Of a DNA stretch of 64,000 bases, positions 40,948-41,762 are shown one piece after another. The notes below the pieces were generated by a model that did not search any database, was not told the DNA's origin, and was given only the letters and a program-made list of their open reading frames with translations. The stretch covers positions 1 to 64,000 of the forward strand of contig SVEA01000011.1 of the NCBI GenBank assembly GCA_015057615.1, in the 5' to 3' direction. The translations under genes were made by a program, and so were the position numbers. Position 1 is the stretch's first letter; the number at the start of each line of letters is the position of its first letter. Source of the DNA: Lachnospiraceae bacterium. Its GTDB lineage: Bacteria > Bacillota > Clostridia > Lachnospirales > Lachnospiraceae.

Positions 40948-41040
40948 AAAGTCTTACCTCCTTATAAAGTATGTAATGAGAGCACCCGTATCAGAGGCCC
41001 CCTGTCTTCGACAGGAGCAAGACACAATTTGGCCGAAGCA

Positions 41041-41118
41041 TCAGTGATAAGCGGATACATCCGCAGTCATCTTACACCATCGACCAGGAATTGTGCCGCT
41101 ACTACTGCCAGTATCCAT
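41041..41118 (-). CDS. Candidate 25-aa leader ORF MDTGSSSGTIPGRWCKMTADVSAYH between M-box and mgtE
   Basis: ATG preceded by aaaggagcgaggtg on minus strand; ends in TGA; not in supplied ORF track because short. Confidence 0.55.
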   Translation of the reverse strand: MDTGSSSGTIPGRWCKMTADVSAYH

Positions 41119-41146
41119 CTTTTTCACCTCGCTCCTTTCTAAAACA

Positions 41147-41180
41147 ATAATCCCGGACTACAAAAAACGTATGTCCGGGA
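41147..41180 (-). terminator. Expression-platform terminator candidate of M-box
   Basis: tcccggac atacgttttttgta gtccggga then ttattgtttt. Confidence 0.65.
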
Positions 41181-41181
41181 C

Positions 41182-41342
41182 ACGAATATTCTACAGCACC
41201 GTCTGAGCTTTAGCTTCGCAGGGCAATGTAATTGCATTATGCTGCACCTTATGCTTCGACGCAGCCTGTTCAAACCTGCTCATGGTGTCTCCACCAATCC
41301 GCGGCAGCAATCCGTATCCCTGTGGTAGCCTTACCTACCGGA
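41182..41342 (-). promoter_or_regulatory. M-box (ykoK) Mg2+ riboswitch
   Basis: Minus strand ggtaggtaaggctaccacagggatacggattgctgccgc...ctgcgtcgaagcataaggtgcagc...gaagctaaagctcagacggtgctgtag, upstream of mgtE. Confidence 0.88.
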
Positions 41343-41428
41343 TCAATTAACACTAATTAGTTTAGCCGTTATTTTCGAAACTGTCAAGTTCATGGAAATC
41401 AATTTTTATAAAAGGGCAAAAAAGGATT

Positions 41429-41626
41429 ACTGTTCACACCCACCCTGTATACCAAGTTATGATTTTGTCAAATGTATCCGTATCGGAGACGCTTTCGCTT
41501 AAGATTCATTACGTAGCGGTACATAAGGCTCCAAAATACGGAGCCAAAGTACCAACGAATGCAAATACTCCTGATGGGATATCATTTGTCGAAATCATAT
41601 TATAGACTTATTGGGGTGTGAACAGT
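41429..41626. mobile_element. Palindromic MITE-like element B
   Basis: TIRs actgttcacacc / ggtgtgaacagt; flanked by 11-bp direct repeat caaaaaaggat at 41417-41427 and 41629-41639. Confidence 0.75.
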
Positions 41627-41762
41627 AACAAAAAAGGATCTGCAGCCTTCTTTCGCATGCGGGAGGATAAGACACTGATTCCTTCTGTCTTTCCAACCGT
41701 GTACTACAGGAAGGTTACACACCCTCTTCTATGCTTGCAGAGCTGCTGCCTTTTCGTAAACG

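Follow-up and report, generated by a model that had tools for sequence, protein, structure and literature searches.

Is the short reading frame that lies between a Mg2+ riboswitch and a Mg2+ importer gene a translated leader, and could it add a layer of its own to the control of that gene? The question is raised by the mgtE locus of a Lachnospiraceae bacterium, studied here in a window of 64,000 nucleotides (the whole stretch of DNA that was analysed, positions 1 to 64,000 of contig SVEA01000011.1). A preliminary description had placed on its minus strand a 25-codon open reading frame (ORF) with a strong ribosome-binding site, between an M-box terminator and mgtE, and had suggested either a leader peptide giving a translation-based layer of control or a regulatory small protein for MgtE. 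We found the ORF exactly as claimed, and our analysis favours the leader peptide: the ORF is probably translated and would form a second, translation-dependent layer of Mg2+ control of mgtE behind the M-box. What carries this reading is the ORF itself, its Shine-Dalgarno (SD) sequence, its conserved position, an N-terminal signature found throughout the class Clostridia and shared with the leaders of corA genes and with MgtL, the leader peptide of enterobacterial mgtA, and a set of conserved RNA hairpins, all of them observed in the sequences.

The leader ORF and its surroundings

The position of the ORF was borne out on both sides. Upstream, the M-box model RF00380 matched over its full length (model positions 1-169 of 169) with an E value of 3.4e-17 and a score (Table 1) above the gathering score of 44 bits, the sole M-box match in the genome; downstream, the gene product was identified as MgtE by its Pfam domains. 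The hairpin that follows the M-box (TCCCGGAC...GTCCGGGA, 41180..41151) is GC-rich, evident by sequence and conserved in the closest relative; the U-tract behind it is imperfect (ATTATTGTTTT), and the hairpin was not flagged in an automatic terminator scan. From the biology of M-boxes, transcription of the leader would be expected to depend on low Mg2+, as had been proposed. The leader SD is strong, with a duplex energy of -12.3 kcal/mol with the anti-SD, and about 90 nt of structured RNA separate the leader stop codon from the SD of mgtE. Around its arginine codon the leader reads CCT GGT CGA TGG. A GTG start 9 nt further upstream, which would give 28 amino acids, was rejected: this GTG is out of frame in two other loci (L109 and L049, read by eye), so the ATG (MD...) was taken as the start conserved across relatives. 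No family was matched when the leader peptides were compared with the NCBIfam profiles.

Table 1. Features of the mgtE locus in the window
Feature	Position	Strand	Evidence
sigma-70-like promoter, TTGACA-17-TAAACT	41359..41387	-	consensus match only
M-box Mg2+ riboswitch aptamer (RF00380)	41188..41349	-	covariance-model match, 85.5 bits
presumed M-box terminator hairpin and weak U-tract	41141..41180	-	sequence; hairpin also in the closest relative (L003)
leader SD, AAAGGAG..GAGGTGA	41124..41138	-	sequence, duplex energy; AAAGG invariant in 12 relatives
leader ORF, MDTGSSSGTIPGRWCKMTADVSAYH and stop, ATG..TGA, 25 codons	41041..41118	-	sequence, conservation, enrichment
CGA arginine codon, leader residue 13	41080..41082	-	otherwise rare codon, conserved in leader class
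hairpin 1, leader SD/start paired with leader 3' end	41035..41135	-	structure prediction, covariation
hairpin 2, anti-SD GCTCC region paired with mgtE SD	40951..41023	-	structure prediction, covariation
mgtE SD, AAGGAGG	40957..40963	-	sequence
mgtE, Mg2+ importer of 450 amino acids	39595..40947	-	Pfam MgtE_N, CBS, MgtE

Directly upstream of the mgtE promoter, on the minus strand (41425-41650), lies a 226-bp element resembling a miniature inverted-repeat transposable element, with terminal inverted repeats. About 40 long copies of it, most with 89-97% identity, were found in the same genome, scored from 209 first-look candidates.

Leader ORFs upstream of Mg2+ importer genes

When 61 relatives were searched at the DNA level, the leader segment proved to be conserved within the same genus. 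The preliminary description had made its proposal depend on the frame being conserved in relatives with the same M-box-mgtE arrangement, and in the closest relative, which keeps the M-box, the terminator hairpin and the ORF (MDTGSSSGTIPGRGWKIRKITAAVSAYH), the frame is maintained despite a 9-nt insertion. In three other relatives the ORF is present (MDAGSSNGIPDRS.. and MDAGSSNDIYDRR..) and no M-box was seen, while six further members of the genus have MDADGSC.. at the same place before mgtE; ORFs starting with MD(A/T)G or MDADG stood before mgtE in nine genus members beyond the closest relative and in one genome of another family. The leader of L109, from another family and with a MgtE 76% identical, is MDAGSSSGTIPDRRR. 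Where coding gaps separate the ORFs of close relatives, they span whole codons, and an Rfam search of the relatives gave no RNA family besides the M-box.

Upstream regions of mgtE were gathered across the genus, the family and the class Clostridia (n=180), and candidates were defined in all regions by a start codon at -330 to -15, an SD duplex energy of -8 kcal/mol or better and a length of 12-60 codons. Candidates were present in 111 of the 180 regions; 86 had Asp or Glu at residue 2, a criterion picked after the first set had been viewed, and 65 of those started with ATG. The same three counts were 20-31, 2-3 and 0-2 in dinucleotide shuffles, and 2, 0 and 0 in 30 control regions upstream of glyA. 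Fisher p-values for the enrichment over controls ranged from 7e-6 to 2e-50, and they overstate independence because the upstream regions are mutually related. The recurrence before mgtE, throughout the class, of what appear to be leader ORFs of the same type supports the proposed translation-based layer. The residue profile of the leaders is M-D-(S/A/G/T)-(G/S/D)-P-(L/S)-P; Pro occupies position 5 in 46 of them and position 7 in 29, and the sequence with which they most often begin is M-D-x-[G/D]-P-x-P. Asp at residue 2 is encoded by GAT (45) or GAC (28), and Pro by CCT (61), CCC (30), CCG (8) or CCA (5); the varying Asp codons and the use of all four Pro codons indicate that the residue is kept, and not one DNA word.

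With a sequence profile built up from the M-box of the window, an M-box was detected at 31 of the 180 regions, 19 of which also had a leader, located between the M-box and mgtE in 19/19 cases. At 67 of the 86 leaders no M-box was detected with this profile, suggesting that the leader also occurs alone. The M-box is a layer upstream of the window leader and does not account for the ORF.

A DNA pattern made of the SD and MDx[D/G]PxP, derived from the clostridial mgtE leaders, gave six matches in 196 genomes of the class, and the reversed pattern gave none. Five of the six are short ORFs that directly precede mgtE; the sixth was rejected as a leader, since its frame continues into a long membrane protein, of CorC/HlyC type by eye. 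When all genomes were scanned, there were at least 120 matches, a number that yields no rate, and those listed contained at least 17 short ORFs of the MDPDP type from enterobacteria (Citrobacter, Enterobacter, Escherichia sp., Lelliottia, Leclercia, Franconibacter, Kosakonia, Trabulsiella and Yokenella). An ORF for a MgtA-like P-type ATPase was visible downstream in 16 of the 17 listed, the Kosakonia stretch ending too soon, and the one such ORF checked against profiles matched TIGR01524 best, on partial sequence. A known sensor peptide, enterobacterial MgtL (MDPDPTPLP), was therefore recovered by a motif that had been derived from mgtE leaders of Clostridia. The matches listed also included four mgtE leaders and one leader before a Brevibacillus corA gene; most of the other short ones listed look like chance, many of them in high-GC genomes. 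Counts were not enriched in the phylum-wide scan, which gave five matches against four for the reversed control; three of the five precede mgtE, one ends at a contig end and one is unrelated.

Upstream of corA, candidates with Asp or Glu at residue 2 were found in 5 of 24 regions of the class. Three had an ATG start (MDIDPYPNYS.., MDTDPYPNRS.. and MDAGPDSSSNQ..), the last in the window's own genome, whose corA is preceded by the strong-SD leader ORF MDAGPDSSSNQRTQTNIQGLQQAADCHMKLSFGITFLP. The presence of the same type before corA suggests that these leaders are tied to Mg2+ import, and not to mgtE alone.

Two variants were also observed. In some family members (L036, L039, L033, L034 and similar ones) the leaders start with MK.. 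and not MD.., carry ..PGRS or ..PRS with CGA AGT, and overlap the mgtE start; a stretch such as AAAACCAC, located immediately ahead of the mgtE SD, offers a pairing partner for their SD region. In a sub-family (L154, L164 and L181; MDGYPGRLC or MDAYPGRLC) the leader has a GTG start and the codons CCC GGT CGA TTA, and long hairpins lie between it and mgtE.

RNA structure, the CGA codon and alternative explanations

Two hairpins were found in 12 aligned relatives: one joins the end of the leader to its SD and start, the other an ACTCC stretch to the mgtE SD region. Their covariation score was 0.292 against 0.224 in shuffles, slid structures reached at most 0.128, and cells with double changes numbered 19 against 8.3 in shuffles, as in compensatory change. 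The leader and mgtE SDs were predicted to be paired somewhat more than in shuffles. In six relatives about 10 nt of the mid-leader (AGCATAACT) match, as read by eye, the complement of AGTTATGCT, which immediately precedes the mgtE SD. This may be a ready-made alternative pairing, one that ribosomes translating the leader would block; no complementarity of this type is present in the window itself. An H-type pseudoknot (GGAYRC/GYRTCC with CCGAAG/CTTCGG) fits the close relatives L047 and L048 and is kept as a possibility, but it does not fit the wider set. An intrinsic terminator formed from the leader 3' end was rejected: it was suggested by eye in a few loci (such as L058), and a U-tract is lacking in L151, L155 and others.

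By analogy with the known leaders described below, we propose that in low Mg2+ the M-box would let RNA polymerase through and ribosomes would then load on the leader. They would pause or fall off near its start, at the acidic/Pro/Gly/Ser N-terminus and then at the conserved CGA codon, after which the RNA would refold and mgtE would be translated. With adequate Mg2+, ribosomes would complete the leader, and the mgtE ribosome-binding site would thereby stay sequestered or occluded. Translation of the leader, Mg2+ as the signal, drop-off or pausing as the sensor and low Mg2+ as the ON state are inferred.

Several observations weigh against this proposal. By the strict criterion, 94 of the 180 mgtE regions had no candidate. 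Of the first 20 residues of the window peptide a single one is acidic (D2); the peptide has one Pro (P11) and no EPDP, and the ribosome may therefore be destabilised only weakly in the classical way; its fit to MgtL-type sensing is partial (D2, P11, CGA), which makes a pause at PGR an alternative. Of the 86 leaders, 21 stop 5-20 nt short of mgtE, a spacing at which coupling of the opposite sign is possible. The ratio of nonsynonymous to synonymous substitution rates, which the preliminary description had named as a check, gave values of 0.67 and 0.87 within the genus, a weak coding signal, and the conserved positions cluster within the first 5-7 codons, silent sites included, showing that an RNA-level constraint overlaps the peptide constraint. 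These last two points, together with covarying hairpins that enclose the ORF, would agree with RNA structure being what is conserved, as an expression platform or second riboswitch-like hairpin in which the reading frame is incidental. We regard this as unlikely, because a strong SD and M-D start precede mgtE in many families with unrelated surrounding RNA, the Pro and Asp residues stay while their codons vary, gaps fall in whole codons, and MgtL and the corA leaders share the peptide start.

The otherwise rare CGA codon recurs in many leaders. Within residues 2-15 it encoded the first Arg of 35 out of 51 leaders, compared with 14 of the 126 other Arg that these ORFs contain, and the motif Arg was CGA in 29/37 cases against 42/561 Arg in mgtE starts (p 8e-23). 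Its conservation could reflect either slow decoding of CGA or RNA pairing. The pause might accordingly come from CGA after Pro-Gly (rare-codon or Arg-tRNA attenuation) and not from acidic/Pro destabilisation, with Mg2+ or tRNA supply altering it; this we judge a minor though real possibility, given that many PxP-start leaders lack such an Arg and that CGA may serve an RNA contact instead (CGAAG/CTTCG in L047 and L048). Completion of the leader could also open the mgtE SD, so that leader translation would activate mgtE. The closely placed stops and the tendency of the mgtE SD to be paired in predictions speak for such coupling, but the stop in the window group lies 93 nt upstream of mgtE and the sign would be opposite to that of MgtL and CorL, which makes it improbable. 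Small proteins of the MgtR type act on Mg2+ transporters, and a micro-protein binding or stabilising MgtE would have a precedent there; nevertheless the leader C-termini are unconserved, no membrane helix is apparent in the window peptide and 8 of the 86 leaders end at or past the mgtE start, so that the regulatory small protein first suggested is very improbable. An ORF of 25 codons is short enough to invite the thought of chance, an explanation that conservation and enrichment contradict and that is scarcely credible.

Comparison with known leaders and significance

In Escherichia coli at low Mg2+, translation of MgtL is cut short by ribosome drop-off at its EPDP motif, leading to transcription and derepression of mgtA (PMC11282234), and translation of corL represses corA, to whose expression it is inversely related (PMC11552253). 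In Mycobacterium tuberculosis, rv1805A, a conserved upstream ORF whose role is unknown and which was reported as mycobacteria-specific, lies between an M-box and pe20 (PMC12810186).

The window ORF resembles MgtL and CorL in being a short, apparently translated ORF 5' of a Mg2+ importer gene. With MgtL, which occurs in Escherichia, Salmonella and relatives, it has in common a strong SD; MgtL has an M-acidic start and Pro repeats, and two alternative structures were reported for mgtA, of which the two hairpins found here might be the counterpart. Unlike MgtL, the clostridial leaders belong to the phylum Bacillota, precede mgtE or corA and are often combined with an M-box; the window peptide has PGR with CGA in place of EPDP, whereas the class consensus MDx[G/D]PxP fits the acidic/Pro motif. 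CorL (E. coli and Salmonella) is by description also poor in Pro and acidic residues, in another host and with another target, although the corA of the window's genome has a related leader. By description rv1805A likewise follows directly on an M-box and is a small ORF under conservation, including a Pro close to the N-terminus, but it precedes pe20 and not mgtE.

No leader peptide of mgtE was described in the open-access literature searched, subscription papers being outside its scope, and the window ORF appears to belong to a widespread and apparently undescribed set of leader peptides before Mg2+ importers of Clostridia. It is quite possible, though we stop short of calling it probable, that this set is a broad class of Mg2+-sensing leaders of mgtE and corA, sharing with MgtL a ribosome-destabilising logic that would span phyla as well as transporter families, often placed behind an M-box and with the conserved CGA as a pause site. 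Sensing of Mg2+ through ribosome stability on a nascent peptide has been described for enteric bacteria; if our proposal is true, a start motif common to the leaders of unrelated importers (mgtE, corA and mgtA) in distant phyla would suggest a sensor of general and repeated use, and the tandem of M-box and leader would constitute a two-layer Mg2+ circuit in Clostridia.
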